From positions 1 through 22,811 of the IMG/VR virus record IMGVR_UViG_3300035701_007033: a stretch of 22,811 nucleotides of DNA; one strand, written 5' to 3'. How positions within the stretch are numbered: position 1 is the first letter of the stretch; the number at the start of each line of letters is the position of its first letter. The DNA is from a virus. Below, piece by piece: positions 2,357-22,811 of the stretch. The notes below the pieces were generated by a model. It had not been told where the DNA came from, did not search any database, and worked only from the letters and a program-made list of their open reading frames with translations. The translations under genes and the position numbers were made by a program.

Positions 2357-3940
2357 TCACTTCAGCAAGGCTACAATCAACCTAGCGCACTCGTCTCGCA
2401 TCGCATTCAGGTCAACCACAGTCTCTTCATCCCGTACCCGAATCAAGAACTCGTTGTCCGGGTCTAACTGCTTGAGCAGCGTCAGGTAGCGGTAGTCGTT
2501 CACCCCTGCTGCGAACCCCTCCCACTGGAGGGTATCCACTACCCCGTCAATCGTCGGATAGGCGAACATGTGGCTGCGGAAGTGGTCGCCCTCCGGGCAG
2601 CCGAAGTCGTCCCAGGGGTGCTTGCTGCCCACCCAAACGTGCATATAGGCATACTCCATACTGCCTGCTATCCATGGTCTATTGAAGAGCATAAGCCCCT
2701 GCTGCCTTCGGTAGCCTTCAGGGTCCTCGCACGCCCCACCGGGCCGCCCATAGACATAGGTTTCTATCCCTGCTGCCCTTAGTTCCATAGTCGCTTCGCA
2801 TCCGGGCCAAGTCCCACCACGCGAAACTATGTCCTGGAGTACTTCCTTGCAAGCAAGGACGGTCTTCTCTGGCATTCCTGATACTGCTCCATATATCTTC
2901 AGGCCGCCCCTCCGTGCCGCCACCCAAAGAGGATATTGCTTTCCTATCCCATCTTCCCTAGCCTCGTCCTTGCAAAATGAATACACCTGCTCCACACCGT
3001 ATCCTTCACACTCAGCAACAACCCGACGTGCATAGGCTTCAGTATCAGCCTCCAACTGGGGCAGCATACTGGGAACAAAATCGTCCCTTAACATCTGCGG
3101 CCCCACACAGCATCCAGTTAGAAATCGGCGATTATTACACCCTGCCTCCTGACGAAGCGCCAGAACATCGTCTAGCTGGCTCTCGCCTACCGCCGTCCCC
3201 GGGTTCCTTATCCCATGAACCACCATGTCCCTCAGGTCGGCTAGCATCTGTGCCGGCGTGCGCCACTCGGGATCAATTCCCGGTTCCCCTCCGTTCAACC
3301 TAGCACGGTAAAAGATACTGTAGTCCACAGATGGGTCAGGTAAGTCGAAAGGATAGACAGTCAACTGCACAGACAGGATTATCGGCATCTGACCACCCGC
3401 AGAGATCCTTAGGTGGAACGGATACTCACCCGATTTCTGGGTAACAGGGATTGCTACAGTCAGCATCACGCCTTGCTCGAATCCCGGCATGAACATCCCA
3501 TCGTCACAGTCCAGCGGCTGCAACTTCTTGGCGTCCCGAGGAATGTCTGGATATGTGTTTACTACTTCCTTGGGATTGGAATCCACTAAGTTGCCATCGT
3601 GCAGCAGTAACTCGGGGACATATTGGGGACGGTCGGCTTCCATTGCTGTGCGGCCAGCCTGCCACCACCACTTAATCCAGCGCAAGTCACAGGTCTCCGG
3701 CCAATCCGATTCAACCATGAGTTTCCGTACCGACGGGTCGCCGCATATGTAGAATGCACCATTTACCCGTTCGCCCTGACAACCACGGAGGTAGAGTGTG
3801 GGGACAGGTTCACTGCCTATCCGGTGTGGCATGAACTCGTGGCGAACATTGCTAATTGCCGGCACTAGGTTTACTTGCATAGCTACCACCGACTTAGGCC
3901 AGAGAAGACTTCCTGCTATGAGCAGCAACTTCCACTTCAT
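2357..3940 (-). CDS. Secreted GH123/DUF4091-like glycoside hydrolase
   Basis: A 527-residue protein with an N-terminal signal peptide: a basic MKWK, a hydrophobic core, and a likely cleavage after VVA at residue 20. A beta-rich N-terminal part to about residue 200 precedes a barrel domain. SFCKDEARED places an Asp-Glu pair at residues 325-326, where GH123-type enzymes carry their catalytic acid pair. The C-terminal segment TLQWEGFAAGVNDYRYLTLL matches the closing motif of DUF4091/GH123 proteins, which act on N-acetylgalactosamine-containing glycans. That assignment is from memory of the family. The ATG overlaps the upstream stop by four bases (ATGA). Export of a glycosidase from a phage-linked operon is unusual. 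Substrate unknown. Confidence 0.8.
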   Translation of the reverse strand: MKWKLLLIAGSLLWPKSVVAMQVNLVPAISNVRHEFMPHRIGSEPVPTLYLRGCQGERVNGAFYICGDPSVRKLMVESDWPETCDLRWIKWWWQAGRTAMEADRPQYVPELLLHDGNLVDSNPKEVVNTYPDIPRDAKKLQPLDCDDGMFMPGFEQGVMLTVAIPVTQKSGEYPFHLRISAGGQMPIILSVQLTVYPFDLPDPSVDYSIFYRARLNGGEPGIDPEWRTPAQMLADLRDMVVHGIRNPGTAVGESQLDDVLALRQEAGCNNRRFLTGCCVGPQMLRDDFVPSMLPQLEADTEAYARRVVAECEGYGVEQVYSFCKDEAREDGIGKQYPLWVAARRGGLKIYGAVSGMPEKTVLACKEVLQDIVSRGGTWPGCEATMELRAAGIETYVYGRPGGACEDPEGYRRQQGLMLFNRPWIAGSMEYAYMHVWVGSKHPWDDFGCPEGDHFRSHMFAYPTIDGVVDTLQWEGFAAGVNDYRYLTLLKQLDPDNEFLIRVRDEETVVDLNAMRDECARLIVALLK

Positions 3941-4848
3941 TCCCGACCCCTAATCTGATCGCACACATCCTGAGCCAGCGGAGACTCGGCATCCGCAAGG
4001 TGAAATGCAATGGTGCCGGGTCGCGTAGGTTTTTGGAGTATATCGTTTGGGATGTTTATGCAGTCTCGACTCTCTTGGTCTCGACGGAAATCCAACTCAC
4101 GCAAGGTACCTATGATCTCCTCTCCAGTCACCCCCGCCTGCTTCAGCTCAAGAATACTGGGGGCAAACTCGGCGGAAGGGCTTCCTACTGTGACAGACTC
4201 CTTGAAAAAAGTCCATCCTCGCCGCACAACTGGAATGTACCACTGCTCCGGTGCCGCCCAACCCAACTGGCAACACAGAAAGTCGTACAACAAAGCCTCG
4301 CCCACCAAATCCCACCCCCTTACAAAGCCAGTGACACCAAAGAAGCGGTGCTCCACTACGCAGGATAGCACACTCCAAGGCACGTACTGGAGTGTCTCAG
4401 TACCGAATCTACCTATCCGTCGCCACAGGACACCCAAGTTACTTCCTGGTTCGGTAATTTGCGGCTCCTTGATGTTCAGGTAGGCTGCACATTCTACCAT
4501 TAGGTCACGTGTTTCCGAAGATCTACCTATGAAGTCAGGCGGGCATCCCAACCAAACCAATGCTTCGACAAATCGTTCTTCGTATTCATTCAGTGTCAAT
4601 GACCCAGGAGCCTTATCCAGCCGCTGGATGCGGAATAGATCTTCGTCAAGGACTAGCACAAACTTTCCGCCCTGTCTTGCCGCCAACCGCCAATTATGCC
4701 ACGCAGTCCAGGCGTGGCCCAAGTGAAGGTCCTTGTGGGGCGTGGGCCGGAAGCACGTAGTAAAGGTACTGCCTATACTGATGTGAGACATCATTGCCCT
4801 GGTAAACTGAGCATGTCCGGGCCTATCTATGCCTGGAGTGCAGTCCAC
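3937..4848 (-). CDS. Class I glutamyl-tRNA synthetase-like (GluQ-type) protein
   Basis: About 303 residues covering only the catalytic half of a GluRS/GlnRS-type class I synthetase. FRPTPHKDLHLGHAW (from about residue 33) holds the signature HIGH-type motif. VRGWDLVGEALLYDFLCCQLG (about 176-196) matches the conserved region where GluRS reads RGxDL before the active-site helix. The second ATP motif, normally KLSKR, is degenerate (FFKES). No anticodon-binding domain follows, so length and layout match glutamyl-Q tRNA(Asp) synthetase, which glutamylates queuosine; the GluQ zinc site is not evident. Start: the ATG at 4857 has GGAG directly abutting it, whereas the GTG at 4848 has GGAG seven bases away and was preferred. 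Reaction and substrate are unproven. Confidence 0.75.
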   Translation of the reverse strand: MDCTPGIDRPGHAQFTRAMMSHISIGSTFTTCFRPTPHKDLHLGHAWTAWHNWRLAARQGGKFVLVLDEDLFRIQRLDKAPGSLTLNEYEERFVEALVWLGCPPDFIGRSSETRDLMVECAAYLNIKEPQITEPGSNLGVLWRRIGRFGTETLQYVPWSVLSCVVEHRFFGVTGFVRGWDLVGEALLYDFLCCQLGWAAPEQWYIPVVRRGWTFFKESVTVGSPSAEFAPSILELKQAGVTGEEIIGTLRELDFRRDQESRDCINIPNDILQKPTRPGTIAFHLADAESPLAQDVCDQIRGRE

Positions 4849-4866
4849 ACCAAACATCTCCTATAA

Positions 4867-4909: not shown

Positions 4910-5686
4910 CTATTGCATCCAGTTGTACCACGACGGCAGTATGTCTGGGTCGAGTCGTTCCCAGATAGGAGGGACTCCGTAACCAGTTCCACCGTCCACG
5001 CTACAGACTGAGGCTTTCAGATACTCCACATGGCCGTCGCCAAACAGGACGTTAGCAGAACCCCGCAGATAGTCGGGTACTGCTCCATTATCATCAGGCA
5101 CGTGGTAGCCTCTGATGCAGAATGGGGGTGCTACGTCAGAGCGGTAAGCGGGTTGTATCCCGTTGACCGCATCTGAGCCGCTCTCTCCTCTGCCTCCCCG
5201 TGCCGTGGTATTGCTGCTCCAGGTAATGAGCGAGGTAGTTGCATCGCCCAGCACGAACAACCGGTCCGGGCGCGGCAATCTGCCCGTATCTACACCGCCT
5301 GCCCAGAAGTTCATGCCATAGTCACCCATATGGTCGCTGTGAGTGTTTTTGTTGCCACCTATCACAAACGAAGGGACCATCTTGCAATGATTTACCTTCT
5401 CCGTCACAGCGTAGGGCCGGACGGCATTGAACCAGCAGTTCCTCCACATTGCGTCCACCGGATTGTACGACGGCGGAAAACATCCGTCGTAGTCAGCCGA
5501 ATATAACGCGAAGGCCACTCCCAGGTTGTAAACATTCGACGTACAGGCGGCCTTCCAACCCGCTGCCTTTGCTTTGGAGAACACCGGGAACAGAATCGCC
5601 GCCAGGATAGCGATTATCGCTATCACCACCAGCAACTCAATCAGGGTGAAACCTTTACGACCAGTTGTCAAGGTACGATACTTCAT
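4910..5686 (-). CDS. Prepilin-like protein with N-terminal methylation motif and C-terminal DGH signature
   Basis: A 258-residue type II/IV pseudopilin-like protein. The short basic leader ends at Gly12; GFTLIELLVVIAII follows with the conserved Glu at position 5 of the mature chain, then a long hydrophobic helix. A prepilin peptidase (PilD type) would cleave after Gly12 and methylate Phe13. The C-terminal ANVLFGDGHVEYL is the DGH signature of the large pseudopilin group common in Planctomycetota and Armatimonadota (DUF1559-like). The start has GGAG upstream. Unlike the neighbouring enzyme genes it has gaps with hairpins on both sides rather than overlaps. No other pilus gene is present, so it would need the host's assembly machinery. 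Its role in a phage setting is unknown. Confidence 0.9.
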   Translation of the reverse strand: MKYRTLTTGRKGFTLIELLVVIAIIAILAAILFPVFSKAKAAGWKAACTSNVYNLGVAFALYSADYDGCFPPSYNPVDAMWRNCWFNAVRPYAVTEKVNHCKMVPSFVIGGNKNTHSDHMGDYGMNFWAGGVDTGRLPRPDRLFVLGDATTSLITWSSNTTARGGRGESGSDAVNGIQPAYRSDVAPPFCIRGYHVPDDNGAVPDYLRGSANVLFGDGHVEYLKASVCSVDGGTGYGVPPIWERLDPDILPSWYNWMQ

Positions 5687-5744: not shown

Positions 5745-6797
5745 TTAGTTTTGCTCTAGCCGCACTAGGTGCGGACGAGTAGCCAGTAACGAATACGGCT
5801 CTAGAATCTCACGGGCACGGTTCTCATTCTCGGGCTTGAGCAGCTGGTCGGCTTCTGCCCAATACCCAGTGAGTCGCTGCTCGTAGGCGGTGCAGAGGCC
5901 CCAAAGCAAGTGTTCTCGCCAGGCGAAGCCGCTAGTACCCCCACCAGCTACGCAAGGCGCTGCTCCCAAGTTGGGATGAACTATGTTTGCCACAGCTCGT
6001 AGGTGCTCCGGTCGTTGGGACTCGTAGACCCAGGGAACTGTCCAACCTACCGGCACTCCGGTCTGCTGGGTGAACTTATGTCCCCACCGGCACCAGGCAA
6101 AGTGCAAGGAGGTACCGTAGCCAATAGCTAGGTCTCGATAGCCATTGCCGCACCAAGGACCTACCTGCATCCAGACCTCCGGGGCCTGGAGCGCCGCCAA
6201 CCGTACTACTTCCTCGGTACGTCTGAGCATACCCTGTTGAATAAAGTAGAAGGTCTTACCCTGCACATCCTCCTCGGGGTGCGCCGCCGGCAGTTCTCCG
6301 GGGTAGAGCGAATCATAAGCTCGCAAGGCATGTTCGTCAAAGACCCAGTACTCTTGAGAACGATGGTCCCCATGGGGTTGCTGGTGCCAGGAAATGGGCA
6401 TGACCGAGGCATCGCCGACACCGATGGTGGTAACAAAGCCCGCCAAGCTACCTTCAGTTAAATCGGCGGCCCTAGCAAACTGGTCCCGTATCAGGTCCAA
6501 TGCCTCAGGGTTCCAGAAGGACGGCCAGTTGTTCGGTGGCACTACTGGATCCTTGCTCTCAAAGCTCGACAGACCCTCGTGATTGCGAAAAGCCAGGTGG
6601 GGATAGTCCTCTTTCAGCCGAGGATGCCACGCCTCCGGCACCAAAGCATAGAGTTGGATATGGTGGTGTCGGGCGTAGGCGGCCAGGTCTGGCAACTCCG
6701 GGCAGCTGGGAACGACTAGATGCGTGAAGCCTAGGTCTGTTGCCCGAGCCAGATCATCTACCCCCACCTGGTTAGGGATATGTAGCCAAAGATCCAT
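5745..6797 (-). CDS. Putative TIM-barrel (glycosidase-like) protein
   Basis: A 350-residue protein starting in a TAATG overlap with the papain-like gene. The opening MDLWLHIPNQVGVDDLARA followed by LGFTHLVVPS reads as the first strands and helices of a beta/alpha barrel of the kind found in GH-like proteins. FWNPEALDLIRDQFARAADL is a typical strand-helix transition in such barrels. Many Trp and His residues lie at strand ends (SWHQQPHGDH, WMQVGPWCGNGY, FAWCRWGH). No signal peptide or membrane helix. A catalytic acid pair cannot be named with confidence. Its position beside a glycosyltransferase, a peptidase and other barrel proteins suggests a glycan-active or carbohydrate-binding role; this is inference from context and fold. 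Confidence 0.75.
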   Translation of the reverse strand: MDLWLHIPNQVGVDDLARATDLGFTHLVVPSCPELPDLAAYARHHHIQLYALVPEAWHPRLKEDYPHLAFRNHEGLSSFESKDPVVPPNNWPSFWNPEALDLIRDQFARAADLTEGSLAGFVTTIGVGDASVMPISWHQQPHGDHRSQEYWVFDEHALRAYDSLYPGELPAAHPEEDVQGKTFYFIQQGMLRRTEEVVRLAALQAPEVWMQVGPWCGNGYRDLAIGYGTSLHFAWCRWGHKFTQQTGVPVGWTVPWVYESQRPEHLRAVANIVHPNLGAAPCVAGGGTSGFAWREHLLWGLCTAYEQRLTGYWAEADQLLKPENENRAREILEPYSLLATRPHLVRLEQN

Positions 6798-7615
6798 TAT
6801 GTCGCCAACTCCACGAACTCCATCTCCCCCAGCGCCCAGCAGTCATCGGCCAGACCTTGGAGGATGTATTCATAGGGCAACCAACCATACCCACCTTCGC
6901 CCCAACCGGTCCCCCAACTGTTCCGAATCAGTAAGGCTCCTTTCGCATCATCATAACCTACCGCCGCCACTGCATGCCCGCCGACTACCTCCTCGCCAGG
7001 CAGGGGCGGGGGAATAACCCCGGTCTTGTTTACCGCCTCGGTCATCAGCGACTGAAAGCAGGTAAAGCCGAAGGCGAAGGGCAGACCCTTAGCCAGGGAT
7101 AGTTTCAACTCCTCCAGCGTCTGCAGGTGATAATAGACCATGGCTCGATAGTTCCCCGCGAAGGCGTAGCAGAAGGCCGTCGGCTCCTCGTCGAACTGGT
7201 CCGCCGCATAGGGCCAGAAGCTCTCGGGGCAGAGACCGAAAAGTCGCATAGCCTGGATAGTGTTGCGGAGAAAGGCCCCGGTGTCGCCAGTCCAACCCAA
7301 CAAAGAACGGGTGACCTTATAGAGGAAGCGTCGGCTGGCGTCAATGTGCTGACTGTGCAGGGTTCGCTGGAGGTGCTCAGCGATTCCTACCACCGCGTGC
7401 GCGGTGCAGGAACCCAACTGCCCCTGGTCCTCTATTGGAGAGTCACTGGCCCGTAGGTCTACGCTAGGCGGCAACGCCTCTACCCCTTCCTTGATGCCCT
7501 TAGAGTTGCCAGTCATGTAGCGGAAGGCGCAGCGCACCCGAGGACTGCTCACCGTGTAGTCTCGATGGTCTGGCGGGTCAGGTAGCCAACCGAATCTAGC
7601 TATGCGGTAAGGCAT
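6797..7615 (-). CDS. C1A papain-like cysteine peptidase
   Basis: A 272-residue protein with all elements of the papain active site. DQGQLGSC (63-70) supplies the oxyanion-hole Gln64 and the catalytic Cys70; GGHAV holds His214; and RNSWGTGWGEGGYGW holds Asn232 in the canonical NSWG motif. The N-terminal GWLPDPPDHRDYT is the typical lead-in of the bacterial and phage branch. There is no signal peptide and no long inhibitory propeptide, so it is either cytoplasmic or delivered by the virion. It starts inside the 3' end of the glycosyltransferase gene with GGAGG five bases before the ATG (16-base overlap). Function could be host protein cleavage, capsid or tail maturation, or cell-wall-linked proteolysis; the sequence does not decide. 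Confidence 0.93.
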   Translation of the reverse strand: MPYRIARFGWLPDPPDHRDYTVSSPRVRCAFRYMTGNSKGIKEGVEALPPSVDLRASDSPIEDQGQLGSCTAHAVVGIAEHLQRTLHSQHIDASRRFLYKVTRSLLGWTGDTGAFLRNTIQAMRLFGLCPESFWPYAADQFDEEPTAFCYAFAGNYRAMVYYHLQTLEELKLSLAKGLPFAFGFTCFQSLMTEAVNKTGVIPPPLPGEEVVGGHAVAAVGYDDAKGALLIRNSWGTGWGEGGYGWLPYEYILQGLADDCWALGEMEFVELAT

Positions 7616-8691
7616 TCTGCCTCCTCGGTTGCCCTTAGTTGGGGAGGAAATGGCAGCATCTCTTGCACCTTACCTACTACCGATTGGGGCGTCAAAGCTC
7701 GCATACACTTCTCACAGTTCCCAGTATGCTGGAGACAGGGAGGACAAGAAACCACATCATTACCCCGCAACACCTCTACGGTATCATAGTAGCAGGTAAG
7801 CACCGTAGGATTGCTAGGGCCAAAGAGTGCTAGTGTAGGCCGACGCAGGACTGCCGATAGGTGGAGTATTCCAGTATCGGGAGTCACCGTTGCCTCTGCC
7901 CGTGCCAGAATGCCGGCTAGATAATGAACCGAACCCGAGGTCTGCCCCCGCAGGTCCAGGATTGTAGGTTCTTCAGTAGATTGCTCCCGTCCCAGGGGAA
8001 CCCCCACCCAAACCGAGCGAACACCCTGCCTATCTAGGAGCCGCGCCGCCTCCTCAATATAATCAGCAGGCCACCCCCGCAGTGAGTTCGCCCAGGAACG
8101 GCCGCCGAAGGCTACAAAGGGTTCCGACCCCAGCGGGGCCAGGAGTTCCGCTGCCCTCTCCTCCCCATAGGGCTGGAGGCTAAATTCCATGGTCTTGTCT
8201 TCCGGCGGACGCCCTAGGACTACCATGCCAAAGCGGTCAACCCGAGGGACATCCCGAGTGGCAGGGTTGTCGTAAGCATCCACGGCAAAGATGAGGTCGA
8301 AGGTGAAGTCTGCTATCCAATCTGGGAAGGTGGGATGCGATTGCTCGGGAAAGGTATGGATGCTATCCACTAGACCTGTACCAGCATAGACATCGGCAAA
8401 CTTAGGGTAGGTGTACAAGATCACCTCCAGGCCTCGCTGCTTCAATTCTCGCAAGGTGGGACTTAGCATTATGAAGTCCCCCAGGCCGGCATCACGAACA
8501 ATGGCTACTCGGTCCCCCGCCACCGCTTCCTCCCAAGTAGGCCGCCGCCAACCATTACCAGTGGCGTTCATCTTCATCACATGTGGGTATTGCTCCACAG
8601 TAAATTCGTGCCAGCCAGGCTGGTAATAGCGACGCTCAGTATCACCGGGCAAGACCACTACCGAATTGGGATACTTACAATACAGTCGCAT
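7600..8691 (-). CDS. Glycosyltransferase family 9 (heptosyltransferase-like) with N-terminal extension
   Basis: A protein of about 363 residues. From about residue 62, VAIVRDAGLGDFIMLSP is the GT9 N-terminal Rossmann motif. VTPDTGILHLSAVLRRP and ALFGPSNP form the nucleotide-sugar binding site of the second Rossmann domain, followed by a CPPC...CEKC cluster often seen in GT9. These enzymes transfer a heptose or related sugar from an ADP-activated donor. The first 60 residues (MRLYCKYPNSVVVLPGDTE...) are not part of GT9 and look like a small separate beta domain. The ATG at 8691 was chosen because GGGAAGG lies just upstream; an in-frame GTG at 8706 overlaps that site. It is the first gene after the major capsid protein. 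Confidence 0.9.
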   Translation of the reverse strand: MRLYCKYPNSVVVLPGDTERRYYQPGWHEFTVEQYPHVMKMNATGNGWRRPTWEEAVAGDRVAIVRDAGLGDFIMLSPTLRELKQRGLEVILYTYPKFADVYAGTGLVDSIHTFPEQSHPTFPDWIADFTFDLIFAVDAYDNPATRDVPRVDRFGMVVLGRPPEDKTMEFSLQPYGEERAAELLAPLGSEPFVAFGGRSWANSLRGWPADYIEEAARLLDRQGVRSVWVGVPLGREQSTEEPTILDLRGQTSGSVHYLAGILARAEATVTPDTGILHLSAVLRRPTLALFGPSNPTVLTCYYDTVEVLRGNDVVSCPPCLQHTGNCEKCMRALTPQSVVGKVQEMLPFPPQLRATEEAECLTA

Positions 8692-10686: not shown

Positions 10687-12105
10687 CTAATTCCCAACTG
10701 TAATCCACCTAAGCGGTTTCTCTGGGCCACCAACCTTATAGATCTTCACCCCGTTGCCTTTCTCCAGCAACGTAAGCTTCGCCGGATTGTAACGACGGAC
10801 TACCACAGACCTAGTCAAGTCGTCCCGGATCGAATCCCTCTCACCGATACTCCCTCGCTTTGGATGCGCCGGACCTACTGCCCCTTTGCACCGTGCGGTG
10901 CCTAAGTGACCCTCGCTGTAGCTGTAGGTGCCGTCCGGATTCTTCTCTATCCCCTTCGGCTTGTTGGCTTCCAACTTACTGAGGCACTCCTCTTTGCTCG
11001 GCCAGCCTTCCCCCAATTCCGCTCCCCCGTGCCCTCCCATCAGTACCTTATAGGCTGCCATCCAACCTTCGGGGGAGACGCTACCGTGGACCTTGTAAGG
11101 GAGCTTCCGGCCCTCAGACTTGCTAGCCTCGCCTGCCTTGTACTTATCAGAGAGGGCTAGAAAGTCGCCGTCGTCGAGGTCGGTTTGGGTAGTACCCTCA
11201 GGGAGCCAACCCTTCAATAGATCTTCCGGCCCCATCGCACCTGTCAAGGGACCCACTCCCAGAAGCTCAGCCTCCATGGCAGCACTCGCATCTGGCTGGA
11301 CTCCAAACTTTCCCGGGGACTGCAGCCGCTCCCGTACGACCTGAGGCGGATTGTTCGACCCCACCGTAGAAGGTTCCAGGTTTGGATGGGGGTTTTGTAC
11401 CACCATTAATACCTCAGAGCAGTCCGGGCAGGACCGAATCGGATGTTTGTCGGCAGGAATGAGTTCCGGTGGAGAACGGTAACCGCATGCTGGACATAGA
11501 TAGACCGATTGGACTGAGGCTGTGCGGTCAGCTGGGAGCATATCTAAGGGACCTTTCTGCACTTCCTCCACTACCTCCGTCTGTGTCAAGCTACCGTCTT
11601 CCGCCATCTTTACTAGGGTAATCACACAGTCGGGGTTGGCCGGGTTGTCCACTAAGGAGAGTTCGTTAAGCTGATACTTCAGGACTCGACGTACCGATTT
11701 CTCTGTCCCATCAGCTAGCTTTCTCACTTCCTTCACCGTCTCCAGCGCCTTGCCCCCAATACTAGCCCCACGGAGGGTGCCGTCCAGAATCTTCTGCCAA
11801 GTATCCTCAGCCCCGGTGGAGATATAAGCCCCTACCCTAACTAGCTTTGCCTCATTGTCGAACTCCTGGTAGACACGTTTGCCTACTGCCTTGGGCTGGT
11901 GCATCTCGCGGATGTTCCCTGCCCAAGTGGCAAAGGCCTCCACACTCCCCCCATAGTCCATGGCATCGCCCTGCTTATCGTCCTTCTCACTGGTACCCAC
12001 CATATCCACGGTGCGCTTTACCGGGTCTATCTTGGTAATAGACAGTGGCAGCACAAAGTCCTGTCCCTCTCCAAACCAAATCGGCAAACCAGTAACTTCT
12101 GCCAT
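10687..12105 (-). CDS. Capsid maturation protease (prohead protease/XkdF-like) with C-terminal tag
   Basis: A 472-residue protein. ATG 12105 has AGGAGG nine bases upstream and lies downstream of the predicted promoter, ruling out the longer frame to 12162. The N-terminal 160 residues resemble HK97-type prohead serine proteases: REMHQPKAVGK carries His69, DGTLRGASIGGKA carries Ser115, and ELSLVDNPANPDC is the characteristic closing motif. A zinc ribbon follows (Cys204, 207, 226, 229), then a linker and a 300-onward region of unknown fold. The last residues, EKPLRWITVGN, are a copy of the module found in eight neighbouring proteins, ending right at the stop. The protease normally cleaves scaffold and capsid precursors during maturation; catalytic residues are inferred from position. 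Confidence 0.85.
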   Translation of the reverse strand: MAEVTGLPIWFGEGQDFVLPLSITKIDPVKRTVDMVGTSEKDDKQGDAMDYGGSVEAFATWAGNIREMHQPKAVGKRVYQEFDNEAKLVRVGAYISTGAEDTWQKILDGTLRGASIGGKALETVKEVRKLADGTEKSVRRVLKYQLNELSLVDNPANPDCVITLVKMAEDGSLTQTEVVEEVQKGPLDMLPADRTASVQSVYLCPACGYRSPPELIPADKHPIRSCPDCSEVLMVVQNPHPNLEPSTVGSNNPPQVVRERLQSPGKFGVQPDASAAMEAELLGVGPLTGAMGPEDLLKGWLPEGTTQTDLDDGDFLALSDKYKAGEASKSEGRKLPYKVHGSVSPEGWMAAYKVLMGGHGGAELGEGWPSKEECLSKLEANKPKGIEKNPDGTYSYSEGHLGTARCKGAVGPAHPKRGSIGERDSIRDDLTRSVVVRRYNPAKLTLLEKGNGVKIYKVGGPEKPLRWITVGN

Positions 12106-13432: not shown

Positions 13433-13654
13433 TCAATACTCCTTCTTCTGCTCCTGCCACTGCCCCATCGACACGCTTAGAATCCGGTTGCCGTCGAACT
13501 CGACGGTGAGCTGGGAGCGGCCCTGAGCTGTCTGCGCTAGGCGGTGTAGACCCAAGAGCAGGTCAGCCCATCCCAGCTTCTCGTCCTGACAAGCGCAGTC
13601 GGCAAGTTGCGCCACTGCTGTCTTCACTTCGTTGCGTAATGGTTCGGGGATCAT
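13433..13654 (-). CDS. Small protein of unknown function
   Basis: A 73-residue protein starting at ATG 13654 with GGAG ten bases upstream. The first half is amphipathic helix-like (NEVKTAVAQLADCAC, KLGWADLLLGLHRLA), the last part two strands (LTVEFDGNRILSVSM) and a Gln-rich end. It lacks the shared module. No family recognised. It follows a decayed copy of the repeat, in a 92-base gap, and precedes the low-GC tagged gene. Confidence 0.6.
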   Translation of the reverse strand: MIPEPLRNEVKTAVAQLADCACQDEKLGWADLLLGLHRLAQTAQGRSQLTVEFDGNRILSVSMGQWQEQKKEY

Positions 13655-13667
13655 TAGACCATCTCCT

Positions 13668-13730
13668 TTAGGTCTTTGCTATTCGCCGTCCGGCAACAAC
13701 TATGAACTTCTCCACCCACTGCCCTGGGGT
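13668..13730 (-). pseudogene. Relic of a tagged gene (third, decayed repeat copy)
   Basis: After an in-frame TGA (13733-13731) a 20-codon open stretch reads T-P-G-Q-W-V-E-K-F-I-V-V-A-G-R-R-I-A-K-T then TAA. The first part matches GQWVQKFMAV of the ChaB-domain gene, and VAGRRIAKT resembles VAGKRVPIT of its module, as if the middle were deleted. The ATG found in the second copy is ATA here. No RBS or start codon is present. Bases 13695-13724 match 14338-14367 at 26 of 30 positions. Confidence 0.55.
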
Positions 13731-13746
13731 TCAGGGATCATTCTGG

Positions 13747-14031
13747 TCACTCCTTACTAGGGGAATCAACGGGTTTAATCTCATGTACCTGTGCTGCCTT
13801 CGCCCTTCGTAATTCCTCCTTCAAGGCATCTCGCTCATTCCTCGTAGCATAGTACAGGTCCATCAAGTAGTTGATCTCTTTCTGCTTCTCGGTACGAGCG
13901 GCTGGCCTTTCCACCCATGCGGCCTCAGGAGGCTCGATAGGAATTCGGCGCCCTCCTACGGTAATCCATTTCACAGGTTTCTTTCCACCCTGAGAACTCA
14001 TCTTCACCAATCCTCCTTCACTAACAACCAT
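13747..14031 (-). CDS. Tagged coiled-coil protein
   Basis: A 94-residue protein. Its first 40 residues duplicate residues 68-99 of the upstream ChaB protein at both protein and DNA level, including GGLVK-SSQGGKKPVKWITV and the module ending RRIPI (residues 18-32). The C-terminal half is a charged helix likely to form a coiled coil (KQKEINYLMDLYYATRNERD and ALKEELRRAKAAQ). The start ATG 14031 corresponds to the internal Met68 of the ChaB gene; GGAAAG lies upstream. It looks like a product of tandem duplication that placed the module in front of a new domain. Function unknown; the coiled coil suggests oligomerisation. Confidence 0.7.
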   Translation of the reverse strand: MVVSEGGLVKMSSQGGKKPVKWITVGGRRIPIEPPEAAWVERPAARTEKQKEINYLMDLYYATRNERDALKEELRRAKAAQVHEIKPVDSPSKE

Positions 14032-14367
14032 AGACTTTCCTACCCACTGCCCGGGTTATATCAGACCCTCCCTTCGTGGCGAGACCAGACGTTCGCGCTG
14101 CTCCAATTCCTCCATCAACCTTGATATGGTCTGTATTGCCTGCTTCTGCGTGGTCGGATTCCTAAGTAGAGGTATCTGATCATAGATAGCATCCTCTACC
14201 TGCTTGATAGATATGGCATTCTCTCCCTCTTGACCTCCCTGGGGAATGGTTATCGGCACCCTTTTTCCCGCAACAGTAATCCACTTCACAGGTTTCTTTC
14301 CACCCTGAGAACTCACCTTCACCAATCCTCCTTTGCTAACAGCCATAAACTTCTGCACCCACTGCCC
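13961..14367 (-). repeat. Tandem direct duplication of 92 bases
   Basis: Bases 14276-14367 (inside the ChaB-domain gene) and 13961-14052 (start of the coiled-coil gene) are direct repeats of 92 bases, identical at 82 positions by hand alignment. They encode the stretch from GQWV through KKPVKWIT, with the shared module at one end. A shorter third copy lies at 13695-13724. The duplication explains how one module copy arose. Confidence 0.85.
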
Positions 14368-16250: not shown

Positions 16251-16453
16251 TAGACCACATCTCCTCCCACCAGACCCCTATGGAAGGACTGCACGTCCTT
16301 CGGTAGGCCGTCTACCAAAGTCTCGTACCGCCGCTCCAGCTCCCGCTTCCGCCCCTCATCCTCGGTGCTACAGTACTCAACCCGCAACCGAGCTAGCTGT
16401 GCCAGAATGGGATGGAGCGACTTATTGCCTTTTCGAATTGTTACCATTCGCAT
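16250..16453 (-). CDS. Small helical protein, possibly with a degenerate tag
   Basis: A 67-residue protein starting at ATG 16453 in a TGATG overlap (an in-frame GTG lies one codon earlier). The body is a charged helix (ILAQLARLRVEYCS, RKRELERRYETLVDGL) ending near VQSFHRGLVGGDVV. The opening MRMVTIRKGNKSLHPI can be aligned with the shared module (R-W-V-T-V-x-G-K-R-V-P-I) if Trp is replaced by Met and a few residues are inserted. It lies between two tagged genes. No family recognised. Confidence 0.65.
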   Translation of the reverse strand: MRMVTIRKGNKSLHPILAQLARLRVEYCSTEDEGRKRELERRYETLVDGLPKDVQSFHRGLVGGDVV

Positions 16454-19376: not shown

Positions 19377-20043
19377 CCCTGCGGGGCATGATGGGAATCC
19401 GTCGGCTCTCGACCGTGACCCAACGTGAGGGTTTCTGTTGCTTCGACAACTTGGTGAATTCGCGAGTAGGCTTAGGTCCTTGGCCTTCGTAATACTCAAT
19501 CCACCTTCGTAGCAATTGCAACTGCACTGACGACGGTGATTCCAGAACCTCTGAAACCAATACCTTGTCAGACTCACTGTGGCGATAATCTACGCTATAC
19601 TCCCGAGCCCACTTAGCACTTTCGTCAATCGCAGACCACTGCTCCGGGGTGGGCAGACCCCGAAACTCCGCAGCAACCTGACCACGCCCGCCACTCGCAA
19701 ATCGCACGGCACCCGTATGGCTCTGGAAATCGAGCACCGCCTGCAATGCGAGATCCAAGAATTCTTCTTCACCCTCGACGAACTCCGGGTCGTAGAGGAT
19801 TGCTATTTTTGCGTGCTGCCCGCTCCAATCCCCTTGATCTCCGAAGTCTAGCATGCGACCGTCCGGGAGTATAAACCCGCACTTGCGGGGATCATCAGTA
19901 ACGCCAAATTCTTTTACGGCACGGTCAATCAGGGCCTGGTCGTGGGTTGGGACCCTACGGTCCTTCGGTGCCACAATGGGGACCCGCCTACCCTTCACTG
20001 TGACCCAGCGGAGGGGCTTGTCCTGCTTCTCCAGACTAGTCAC
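19363..20043 (-). CDS. Double-tagged protein with LPDGRMLDFG domain
   Basis: A 226-residue protein with the shared module at both ends: KPLRWVTVKGRRVPI (residues 9-23) and KPSRWVTVESRRIPI (204-218), the latter nearly at the C-terminus. The middle holds CGFILPDGRMLDFGDQGDWS followed by HAKIAILYD. I recall a similar GFILPDGRMLDF segment in other phage proteins, without a named function. GTG 20043 was chosen: it overlaps the stop of the membrane-protein gene (TAGTG) and has GGAGG nine bases upstream. The longer frame to 20166 reads through that gene in another frame. It directly precedes the portal. Confidence 0.8.
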   Translation of the reverse strand: MTSLEKQDKPLRWVTVKGRRVPIVAPKDRRVPTHDQALIDRAVKEFGVTDDPRKCGFILPDGRMLDFGDQGDWSGQHAKIAILYDPEFVEGEEEFLDLALQAVLDFQSHTGAVRFASGGRGQVAAEFRGLPTPEQWSAIDESAKWAREYSVDYRHSESDKVLVSEVLESPSSVQLQLLRRWIEYYEGQGPKPTREFTKLSKQQKPSRWVTVESRRIPIMPRRGGKD

Positions 20044-20222
20044 TATCTTGCTCCTCCTACTAGAATCGTCAACCCCGCCGCTAGCATGACCACCGCCAGC
20101 ACCACCTCCACCACACCATATTCCCCGTAGCGAAAAAGCCGCCAGAGGTTCTTGGTGAAGAGCCACAGGCCGCCCAGGGTTAGGGCTAGACCGGTGAAAA
20201 GTGCCAGATAACCTTCAGCCAT
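20043..20222 (-). CDS. Small two-helix membrane protein
   Basis: A 59-residue protein, short enough to escape ordinary ORF cut-offs. ATG 20222 overlaps the upstream stop (TAATG) and its TAG overlaps the next GTG (TAGTG). Residues 4-22 (GYLALFTGLALTLGGLWLF) and 40-58 (GVVEVVLAVVMLAAGLTIL) are membrane helices joined by a short polar, basic turn (TKNLWRLFRYGEY). This is holin-like in size and layout, but it lies between head genes rather than in a lysis cassette, so another role such as membrane docking of assembly is as likely. The gene call rests on coupled start and stop and a clear two-helix pattern. Confidence 0.8.
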   Translation of the reverse strand: MAEGYLALFTGLALTLGGLWLFTKNLWRLFRYGEYGVVEVVLAVVMLAAGLTILVGGAR

Positions 20223-20599
20223 TAGAGTTCCTCCACTATCGCGTCATGCAACTCTGCCACCTTCGACTCACCTAGAATCTGCTTCAGGCGATTGAAGAAA
20301 GCGTGGGCCAACTGGCCGCGTTGCTCCGGCGTGGCCTTGGCACCCAGACGCGTACCGGCAGTTAACCAAGCACTGACGATTTCGCTTACTAGTTGAGAGT
20401 GCGGAGTGCTGGGATGCACCTTCGGGTAAGTGGCAAAAGCGTGCTCCACAGCTTCGTCTACCGTAGAACTACCCACCATGGCAGCAGATGCGACTTGCGG
20501 TGGCCCCACGTAACGCCGGGAACGACCGGTGGGGGCTGTAATAGGCACTCGCTTGCCTTGGACCGTAATCCAACGCGTGGGCTGGTTTTGCTTGCGTAT
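20222..20599 (-). CDS. Tagged protein with apparent AUA start
   Basis: A 125-residue protein. Its module copy (PTRWITVQGKRVPI, residues 7-20) is complete only if translation begins at ATA 20599, which sits in a TAATA junction with the terminase stop and seven bases after AGGAG. The next usable start, GTG 20548, lies within the module and would destroy it. From ATA the chain begins M-R-K-Q-N-Q-P, closely matching the starts of other tagged proteins (M-N-K-Q-D-R-P). The rest is helical (LVSEIVSAWLTAG, LAHAFFNRLKQILG, HDAIVEEL). No family recognised. A sequencing error in place of ATG is possible. Confidence 0.7.
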   Translation of the reverse strand: MRKQNQPTRWITVQGKRVPITAPTGRSRRYVGPPQVASAAMVGSSTVDEAVEHAFATYPKVHPSTPHSQLVSEIVSAWLTAGTRLGAKATPEQRGQLAHAFFNRLKQILGESKVAELHDAIVEEL

Positions 20600-22410
20600 T
20601 AGCGTTCTCCTCTAGCTGTGCGAATCTTCTGACGTAACCAATCCACCTGCTCTACCGGCGTCAAATCCGGTGCTAGCACTCCAGGTACCGGTACCACCCG
20701 ATACCCTCCCGGCGCCTCCTCCTTGGCCTCAAGGGAAGGTGCTTCGACCAGGTCCACTCCATCCACCACCATGGAAAACCCGCTAACAGACCTTCCTATC
20801 AGTGCAGCGAAGACAGCTCCGGCCACTCCATCAGCCACATCTTTACTCCCCCGGGGCGGGTGGTCGACTTTCTTACCCTGGATGAGTTCTAGCTGACACA
20901 GTTCTTGGATCAAAGGCGAGAAGTCAGGGAGGGAAACCCGGTTGGTATGAAGTAATTCCTTGAAGGTATCATAGGCCTCAAGATCCCGATCCACTGAGAA
21001 CACCTCCGCCTGGAAACCGGCCCGCCGAAGTTGCTGAAGTGAATCCGCTGACTGCCAGCCGTCATAAGTTACCTGGCGGATAGAGAACCCCGCTTGCCTT
21101 AGGTCTAGGACCAACTGCCGGATGGCCTCAAAATCCACCTCTCCACCGTATTGCTCTGCTGTCAACCGCCAAGCATAATCCACTACCACTGAACCACCTA
21201 ACTCGCAATGAGCCATCCCCACCCCGGCGGCATCCCGCTTGAGACCCAAGTCGACATGGAGGTAATAGGCGGCGGTAGGCACCGGCACCAACCAACTCGG
21301 CAATGAGTCTATATCGGCTATGGTGTGCTCTACCGAGCGGCCTAGGTCTACCGCTGCCAACACCACAGATGCTGATAGATATCCTCCGATGGCCTCACTA
21401 GGGACCGCACCCAGGTCGCGGGCAGCCCTATCAGGGTCCCGGAGGAACTGCTCTTGGTATTCTATAGGAACTTCCCCACAGAGGGGATGGGAAAAGGTAA
21501 CTCCAGAAAGCCTCGCCGCTGGAGCCCCTTCCCAGCTAGGCAGTCGAGAAGCGTAGACAGTAGAATTGACTTCCGCTTCCCGCATCTTTCGAGCAATGAA
21601 GTCACCGACATACCGAGGCGAAGAGATCAAGAGGAACAATGAATGACGCTGCCAGTTCAGGTTCCCTCGGGAGAGCATCCTCTCAGAGAGGGTATAGTAC
21701 AGCTCCTCGGCGGCATCGTACTGGCCTTGTCGAGTCCGACCAGCCTGGCGGAGAGAACGCTCTACTACCTCTAGCCAAGAGGCCTCATCAACCACTGCTC
21801 CGAGGACGTTGTAACCTAGCGCTGAAGTCTCTCGGGAGTTCCCCGGAAAGGCTACCACATTCTGCTCCGTCCAGCGGAGTTCGGATTGTAGCTTCCTGTC
21901 CCGCTGGAACCCCGGTCCTTGGAAGCAAGGAGCATGATCGATTCTGCGAGCCAACTCCGAGAAGACTACCCTCTCCGCTTGAGTGGCATTGACGGAGAAG
22001 TTGGTGAAGACAATCTGGGAACCGGGAGCCAAGCCATAGTAAGCCTGGGGGTCTCTAAGACAGAGGGTTCGATAGATCATGTAGGCTAGAGCCACGGAAC
22101 AGAGGAAAGACTTCCCAGCCCCGATACCCCAATAAAGAGCGGCCTCATGGTAGGAACCACCCGGGGCAAAAAGCTCGTAGAGAGTGCGCTTAACCGCTGA
22201 GCAAGCCTGTCGGTCTAGATCGAAATAGGAAGGGCTTTCAATCGCTTGCTGAATCGTCGGAGGCACTAGCCGGTAATGTTTTCTGGCCGCCTCTAACCCC
22301 TTCTGCCGAGTAGGAGTCAGGTTCTCCTTCAAAGCTTCCAGCTCCGAGGGCATCAAGTCCAGTAAGGAGGTCGTCAATGGTTCCTCTAAAGAGACATCGG
22401 AGGTCGGCAC
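20599..22410 (-). CDS. terL: Large terminase subunit (ATPase and nuclease)
   Basis: A 603-residue packaging motor protein. The N-terminal ATPase has a Walker A loop YWGIGAGKSF (GAGKS at about 97-101) and a Walker B strand LGAVVDEASW (about 204-212). The C-terminal RNase H-like nuclease shows YYLHVDLGLKRDAAG (Asp387), VTYDGWQ (Asp450) and PRGSKDVADG (Asp524, Asp527), the usual acidic metal ligands. It translocates phage DNA into the procapsid through the portal and cuts at headful or cos sites. GTG 22410 was preferred over GTG 22422, which overlaps the excellent AAGGAGGTGA site; from 22410 the spacing is normal. Its 5' end overlaps the small subunit gene by 173 bases. It ends in TAATA with the next gene. 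Confidence 0.95.
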   Translation of the reverse strand: MPTSDVSLEEPLTTSLLDLMPSELEALKENLTPTRQKGLEAARKHYRLVPPTIQQAIESPSYFDLDRQACSAVKRTLYELFAPGGSYHEAALYWGIGAGKSFLCSVALAYMIYRTLCLRDPQAYYGLAPGSQIVFTNFSVNATQAERVVFSELARRIDHAPCFQGPGFQRDRKLQSELRWTEQNVVAFPGNSRETSALGYNVLGAVVDEASWLEVVERSLRQAGRTRQGQYDAAEELYYTLSERMLSRGNLNWQRHSLFLLISSPRYVGDFIARKMREAEVNSTVYASRLPSWEGAPAARLSGVTFSHPLCGEVPIEYQEQFLRDPDRAARDLGAVPSEAIGGYLSASVVLAAVDLGRSVEHTIADIDSLPSWLVPVPTAAYYLHVDLGLKRDAAGVGMAHCELGGSVVVDYAWRLTAEQYGGEVDFEAIRQLVLDLRQAGFSIRQVTYDGWQSADSLQQLRRAGFQAEVFSVDRDLEAYDTFKELLHTNRVSLPDFSPLIQELCQLELIQGKKVDHPPRGSKDVADGVAGAVFAALIGRSVSGFSMVVDGVDLVEAPSLEAKEEAPGGYRVVPVPGVLAPDLTPVEQVDWLRQKIRTARGER

Positions 22411-22811
22411 GGATCGGTTCACCTCCTTTTCCAGTCAGCTCGGTTCGGGAGTCGGTGAGGGGGGAACCTAGGAGGGAACAAGCTAGTCGAATGCCCTTGT
22501 CTAAAGTCAGCATGGCAGCTTGCCGGTCAGCGATAGTACCTACCTTAGCTTGGCCGGCAACCAACTCGTCATGCAATTTCTCCATCTCTTCCTCAACGAG
22601 CTTGGCCCACTTAGCTCGTAGCTGAAGAGTCCTGTCCGCATGGAGTTCGATTTGCCTTTCGGCGAGCTTTAGGTCATATGCGTCAATCCGGTTCCTCCAA
22701 TGGAACTGCGAGGACCAGAATTGGAGAGTTCCTACGGAGGTAGTAGGAATCTGAGCCTTAGGGTCCTTTGCCTGGCGCTCCAGGTAGGAAGCACAAAGGT
22801 CTCGCAGGGAC
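22238..22811 (-). CDS. Small terminase subunit, partial (5' end beyond window)
   Basis: The frame is open from the window edge to the TGA/TAA at 22238, about 190 visible codons, so the N-terminus is missing. The visible part includes LQFWSSQFHWRNRIDAYDLK, the F-x-W-x-x-R-x-x-A-Y-D signature of small terminase proteins of Gram-positive-type phages. A long charged helix follows (LQLRAKWAKLVEEEMEKLHD), suited to oligomerisation. Small subunits recognise the packaging site and feed DNA to the large subunit. The last 58 codons overlap the large subunit gene in another frame; the end of this region (PDSYSAEGVRGGQK...) looks low-complexity. The identification rests on the signature and on direct linkage to the large subunit. 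Confidence 0.8.
   Translation of the reverse strand, partial: SLRDLCASYLERQAKDPKAQIPTTSVGTLQFWSSQFHWRNRIDAYDLKLAERQIELHADRTLQLRAKWAKLVEEEMEKLHDELVAGQAKVGTIADRQAAMLTLDKGIRLACSLLGSPLTDSRTELTGKGGEPIRADLRCLFRGTIDDLLTGLDALGAGSFEGEPDSYSAEGVRGGQKTLPASASDDSASD

Follow-up and report, generated by a model that had tools for sequence, protein, structure and literature searches.

A candidate AUA start codon of a terminase-adjacent gene in a phage head operon

We describe a phage gene, here denoted tag1, that directly follows the gene for the large terminase subunit (TerL) and that probably, at a chance of somewhat under 60% in our estimate, starts at a natural AUA codon; judging from the sequence, this codon would have replaced a translationally coupled AUG and would be used, probably weakly. 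The gene belongs to IMGVR_UViG_3300035701_007033, a virus record of 22,811 bases drawn from a contig collection (hereinafter the window, that is, the entire stretch of DNA that was analyzed). The relevant features are the following.

20599..22422, minus strand: TerL, terminase large subunit, the upstream gene (phrog_2, E 1e-12; N-terminus uncertain)
20222..20599, minus strand: tag1, a tagged gene of 125 codons counted from ATA 20599, with an N-terminal module, a linker and a helical body
20597..20599, minus strand: proposed tag1 start ATA, with one base in common with the TerL stop (TAATA)
20607..20610, minus strand: Shine-Dalgarno (SD) core GGAG inside AGAGGAGAA, 7 nt 5' of the ATA
20531..20584, minus strand: shared module QPTRWITVQGKRVPITAP of tag1
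20546..20548, minus strand: rival start GTG, which would remove the module W and the first predicted strand
20043..20222, minus strand: gene after tag1, for a small protein of membrane type as judged by eye; ATG in a TAATG overlap with the tag1 stop

Genomic context of tag1

Comparison with Pfam and PHROGs identified a phage head operon on the minus strand of the window that encompasses genes for the terminase (phrog_2), the portal (PF04860), the head protease (PF04586, phrog_9427) and the capsid; the SU10-type major capsid protein (PF17236) was recognized barely over the cut-off. The tagged genes fall between the terminase and the protease. The frame of TerL from GTG 22422, which is immediately preceded by GGAG, overlaps the preceding gene (22238-22434, minus strand) by 185 nt, and the start of TerL is uncertain. 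The capsid gene is followed by genes for a glycosyltransferase 9 (7600-8691), a papain-type protease (6797-7615) and a pilin-type N-methylation protein (4910-5686) that shows a weak match to DUF1559, below the cut-off, all on the minus strand. DUF1559 proteins are plentiful in Planctomycetes and Armatimonadota, and a host from one of these groups is possible. The product of 3937-4857 (minus strand) resembles Glu/Gln tRNA synthetases in their catalytic domain (PF00749, E 1.8e-9); no tRNA genes were found in the window.

The start codon of tag1

The frame of tag1 (20614-20222, minus strand) reads stop-RRTLIRKQNQPTRWITVQGKRVPITAP..., so that the closing TAG at 20614 is followed by the codons AGG AGA ACG CTA ATA CGC AAG CAA AAC CAG CCC ACG CGT TGG. 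The first ATG, GTG or TTG in this frame is GTG 20548, which is located inside the module, and standard-start ORF finding accordingly yields only a 108-aa product. With the full start set of translation table 11, in which AUA is included, a 125-aa ORF opens at ATA 20599, and this is the only start permitted by the table that leaves the module whole. The preliminary description of this DNA, which had placed the ATA in a TAATA overlap seven bases from the SD core and had noted that the module is intact only from this codon and is cut by GTG 20548, thus holds on all these counts. The other triplets between TAG 20614 and the ATA are AGG, AGA, ACG and CTA, with ACG located 1 nt and CTA 4 nt from GGAG. 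As an ordinary sense codon, ATA accounts for 52 of the 5821 codons in the window.

The predicted SD duplex has an energy of -8.9 kcal/mol at the ATA (matched by 8.3% of 3000 random positions) and -3.0 kcal/mol at GTG 20548 (matched by 67%), under the assumption of a generic 16S tail that may differ from that of the host. Two features expected of an AUA-initiated bacterial gene are thus present in tag1, namely conserved N-terminal sequence 5' of every in-frame AUG, GUG or UUG and, under the same assumption, an SD at the usual spacing from the AUA.

Translation from GTG 20548, which would leave the upstream half of the module untranslated, is very unlikely, even though this is the first standard start codon in frame. 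In addition to the weak SD, a start at this position would cut the predicted hairpin, leave conserved codons untranslated and put 50 nt between the TerL stop and tag1, compared to the one-base overlap in the closest relative (see below). The conservation at issue was assessed by comparing tag1 with nine other module copies, seven from the window and two from the relative; the g8 copy, which contains an insertion, the incomplete copy in the protease of the window and the remaining, more divergent copies of the relative were excluded. For the 12 module codons before GTG 20548, the pooled pS is 0.74 and the pooled pN is 0.22 (single-pair pN 0.11-0.38), and for the six codons from the GTG onward, the respective values are 0.78 and 0.24; these values reflect the mixed history of all copies and are not evidence of current translation of the tag1 copy. 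Given that pS exceeds pN on both sides of the GTG, the piece before it is conserved as protein in the same manner as the part after it. The codon usage score of the 16 codons from the ATA to the GTG, a piece too short for this score to be informative, is 0.002 per codon, compared to -0.24 and -0.14 in the other frames and 0.157 in the body of the gene.

In the single-sequence AlphaFold2 model of tag1, the module region forms two strands (residues 10-13 and 16-19) with low to moderate confidence (block pLDDT 54-64), the first of which would be deleted by a start at GTG 20548. The remainder is predicted as four helices within residues 47-124, with block pLDDT of 87-94 from residue 51.

Because the module frame is -1 relative to TerL and is open after TAG 20614, a TerL-tag1 fusion produced by -1 frameshifting near the end of TerL has to be considered as well. 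Such a fusion is extremely improbable: an X XXY YYZ heptamer is absent from 20640-20590, and the relative has a plain TAATG in its place.

The shared module

The module conforms to the pattern [RK]W[VI]T[VI]xGKRVPI. A regular expression for its core detects 10 sites in the window, all on the minus strand, and the 125-aa tag1 query matches eight other places in the window (E 3e-8 to 3e-3), which indicates that the resemblance is not due to chance. We count nine full copies on eight head-operon proteins (two on g5; this and similar gene names are our own labels), together with an incomplete copy at the C-terminus of the protease; the module W is encoded at approximately 20572, 20007, 19422, 17389, 17196, 16223, 14283, 13968 and 13390 on the minus strand, and the partial copy at 10710. 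The module is located at or near the N-terminus in tag1, g5, g7, g8, g10, g13 and g15, and after a ChaB domain in g12; the second copy in g5 and the partial copy in the protease are C-terminal. As a guess from this distribution, the module might be a common docking or capsid-targeting tag.

When the ATA is taken as codon 1, the module W of tag1 falls at position 10, as it does in g7 (start ATG), g8 (GTG) and g10 (GTG). With the chosen starts, it is residue 7 in g15, 13 in g5 and 22 in g13. The N-terminal sequences of g8 (VNKQDRPIRW) and tag1 (IRKQNQPTRW) can be aligned without gaps.

The module regions of g13 and g12 are contained in a 95-nt repeat with 88% identity (13958-14052 and 14273-14367) that looks like a recent duplication. 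Between g13 and g14 (13654-13733, minus strand), there is a short apparent module-linker remnant, TPGQWVEKFIVVAGRRIAKT, of 20 codons between stops, apparently duplicated module DNA that has since decayed; a stretch near 13740 is also similar to the start of g14.

One-base overlaps and the closest relative

Provided that the ATA is the start, the stop of TerL and the start of tag1 share one base. Among the 28 gene junctions of the window (with the chosen starts), six others show such an overlap, namely TAATG at 20222, 12956 and 6797, TAGTG at 20043 and 16250, and TGATG at 16453. The preliminary description, which gave TAATG for all other junctions of this type, is therefore inaccurate on this point; the last base is nevertheless G in all six, and A is found only at the TerL/tag1 junction. 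The usual forms of the one-base overlap, as given in PMC10666635, are TAATG, TGATG and TAGTG.

A module-alignment scan of IMG/VR identified IMGVR_UViG_3300035698_027708 (10,896 bases) as the closest relative found. Its TerL and portal are, respectively, 52-54% and 46-51% identical to those of the window, and it carries its own set of tagged genes, including the following one.

Relative, L018, 1056-1703: tagged gene directly after the terminase; ATG 1056 in TAATG

The junction sequence is AGAGGAGAAGTATATAATGG in the relative and AGAGGAGAACGCTAATACG in the window; both contain AGAGGAGAA and a one-base overlap, with 9 nt in the relative and 7 nt in the window between GGAG and the start. Because the relative has ATG in TAATG at the equivalent junction, the ATA of the window occupies the position of an ATG. 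The AUA itself was not seen in a relative: ATG is present in the only relative found to share this junction. The bodies of the tagged genes in the window and the relative showed no tblastn match to each other; hence the junction and the module are common to the two, and orthology of the entire genes is not claimed. In the relative, two modules are also found on a single 816-aa protein (L012, 2056-4506) that matches g11 and, weakly, g10, and that appears to be a fusion.

Taken together, the module register, the SD, the one-base overlap, the conservation before the GTG and the equivalent start in the relative provide good support for initiation at the ATA position. This part of the earlier reading stands, and its interpretation of the codon as an AUA start is plausible, with partial support. 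The preliminary description had also taken an ATG at this position in related phages as evidence against an AUA start, and the single close relative found indeed has ATG, a result that does not separate a used AUA from an erroneous base or a lost start.

Terminase scans of IMG/VR returned 2, 13 and 30 loci; in the stretches scanned, the relative alone contained modules. Among the 30 terminase-related loci, 29 have a readable stop, and nine of these, including the relative, show TAATG at that stop. The other eight, in which no module was detected in the stretches scanned, cannot be considered independent because one pair is identical across 300 nt and most of the rest resemble at least one other member of the group at 64-89%. 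The remaining 20 loci show other arrangements. At three of these 20 (L056, L057 and L060), the stop followed by TAA spells TAATA; an ATG lies a few bases further on, and these were not counted as AUA starts.

Further searches added little to this picture. The portal scans returned only the relative in IMG/VR and nothing in genome_contigs; the module scans of IMG/VR returned the relative and, with one isolated module each, the two contigs L013 and L014; and a degenerate DNA pattern for the module had no matches in genome_contigs. A search of IMG/VR for the TerL/tag1 junction that left the third start base ambiguous, and from which very near records may be omitted, had no matches and thus gave no second record of the locus. 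TerL itself has matches in 374 phage records; identity is below 60% in all of them and about 27-29% in the best 15 of the 374. For tag1, there was no significant match in Pfam or PHROGs, no match among phage records and no match of the fold at E <= 0.001 in BFVD or PDB; its lone IMG/VR match falls inside a clamp-loader-like gene and was dismissed as chance.

Origin and use of the AUA

Tag1 would be the downstream member of a terminase/tag pair in which stop and start overlap by one base. In the ancestor, the start would have been AUG within UAAUG, with the third base now A as sequenced; this direction of change is suggested by a single relative. Ribosomes that end TerL synthesis at UAA, or that bind AGAGGAG directly, would initiate at the AUA with the initiator tRNA, giving a product with the complete module and the helical body, at an output below that from AUG. 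Because lowered output is what is reported for AUA starts (PMC13009471, PMC12864459), the amount of tag1 product is expected to be reduced rather than nil.

That the ATA in the contig is a sequencing or assembly error and the phage has ATG is rather unlikely but the most serious of the alternatives. The relative has ATG, G is the final base of each of the six other one-base overlaps in the window, a lone substitution would not be visible elsewhere, and the record itself comes from a collection of contigs. Conversely, no further indication of poor sequence came up, TerL and the portal of the window align to the relative without stops, and consensus errors are assumed to be rare enough that one in a start codon would be unlikely.

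It is unlikely that the ATA is natural and the start is effectively lost, with tag1 turning silent or module-less. Module DNA does seem to have decayed elsewhere (the apparent remnant TPGQWVEKFIVVAGRRIAKT at 13733-13654), and the change from ATG to ATA can be considered a knock-down given that, in Escherichia coli rpoS, it reduced the protein level up to 5-fold (PMC12864459). However, the frame, the SD and the downstream TAATG junction of tag1 are all intact, and its body scores as coding and is predicted with high confidence by AlphaFold2.

The portal gene of the relative bears on one further possibility. Its frame (L032) is open from 2691 and contains no ATG, GTG or TTG until 3204, whereas homology to the portal of the window begins at 2769. 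The SD of ATG 3204 is also fair (-8.3 kcal/mol), yet a start there would forgo 145 codons of portal homology; GGAAGGAG is located 6 nt 5' of CTG 2709, with a duplex energy of -9.4 kcal/mol. Tailed phages cannot do without a portal protein. Since, in addition, the homology precedes ATG 3204, CUG 2709 is the likely start of this portal. Thus, the phage lineage or its host might tolerate near-cognate starts, with AUA in tag1 and CUG in the relative's portal setting the dose of head-operon products, a scenario that we also consider unlikely. Nevertheless, the presence of a candidate near-cognate start in each of two contigs of one lineage mildly favors such tolerance over error.

Comparison with known AUA starts

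The rarity of AUA starts in bacteria, also stated in the preliminary description, is borne out, with documented exceptions: infC, ccpN and citZ of Staphylococcus aureus start at AUA (PMC13009471). According to the same source, reporters with the non-canonical starts AUA and AUU gave about 10% of the AUG output in poor medium, and the ccpN AUA gave up to 30% in rich medium. As in tag1, the AUA in these genes stands behind an SD, and the ccpN and citZ reporters were below AUG; these starts are backed by ribosome profiling and reporters, and the AUA of ccpN is conserved (PMC13009471), in contrast to tag1, which is known from the sequence of one contig and has AUG in its relative. The replacement of ATG by ATA at the start of the rpoS gene in laboratory-grown E. 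coli O104:H4, with its up to 5-fold decrease in protein, resembles the proposed history of tag1 in being a single start change after which the protein is still made, in a smaller amount, but it affected a cellular gene and arose in culture (PMC12864459). An ATA efficiency of up to 1% (Hecht et al. 2017) is quoted in the same source.

Termination-reinitiation pairs share one base between stop and start, as do TerL and tag1, although TAATA is not among the forms TAATG, TGATG and TAGTG given in PMC10666635. Among phage-related genes, the wmk homologue of the Wolbachia strain wInn, which belongs to a prophage region, is annotated with an ATA start; here, the authors suspect misannotation and prefer an upstream GTG (PMC6967388), whereas the open frame of tag1 contains no upstream standard start. 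The lambda cI gene has been started at codons beyond the known rare set, in which AUA is listed (PMC6397469). A literature search, limited in reach, found no confirmed AUA-started phage gene. The candidate AUA start of tag1 is uncommon, yet of a kind already known.

If the base is not real, the ATA would be no more than a sequence detail confined to a single contig. If the base is real, tag1 would be a phage gene with a natural AUA start, placed in a termination-reinitiation overlap where the stringency of start codon selection could be measured directly, and it would also illustrate how gene calling that admits only ATG, GTG and TTG truncates N-terminal modules.
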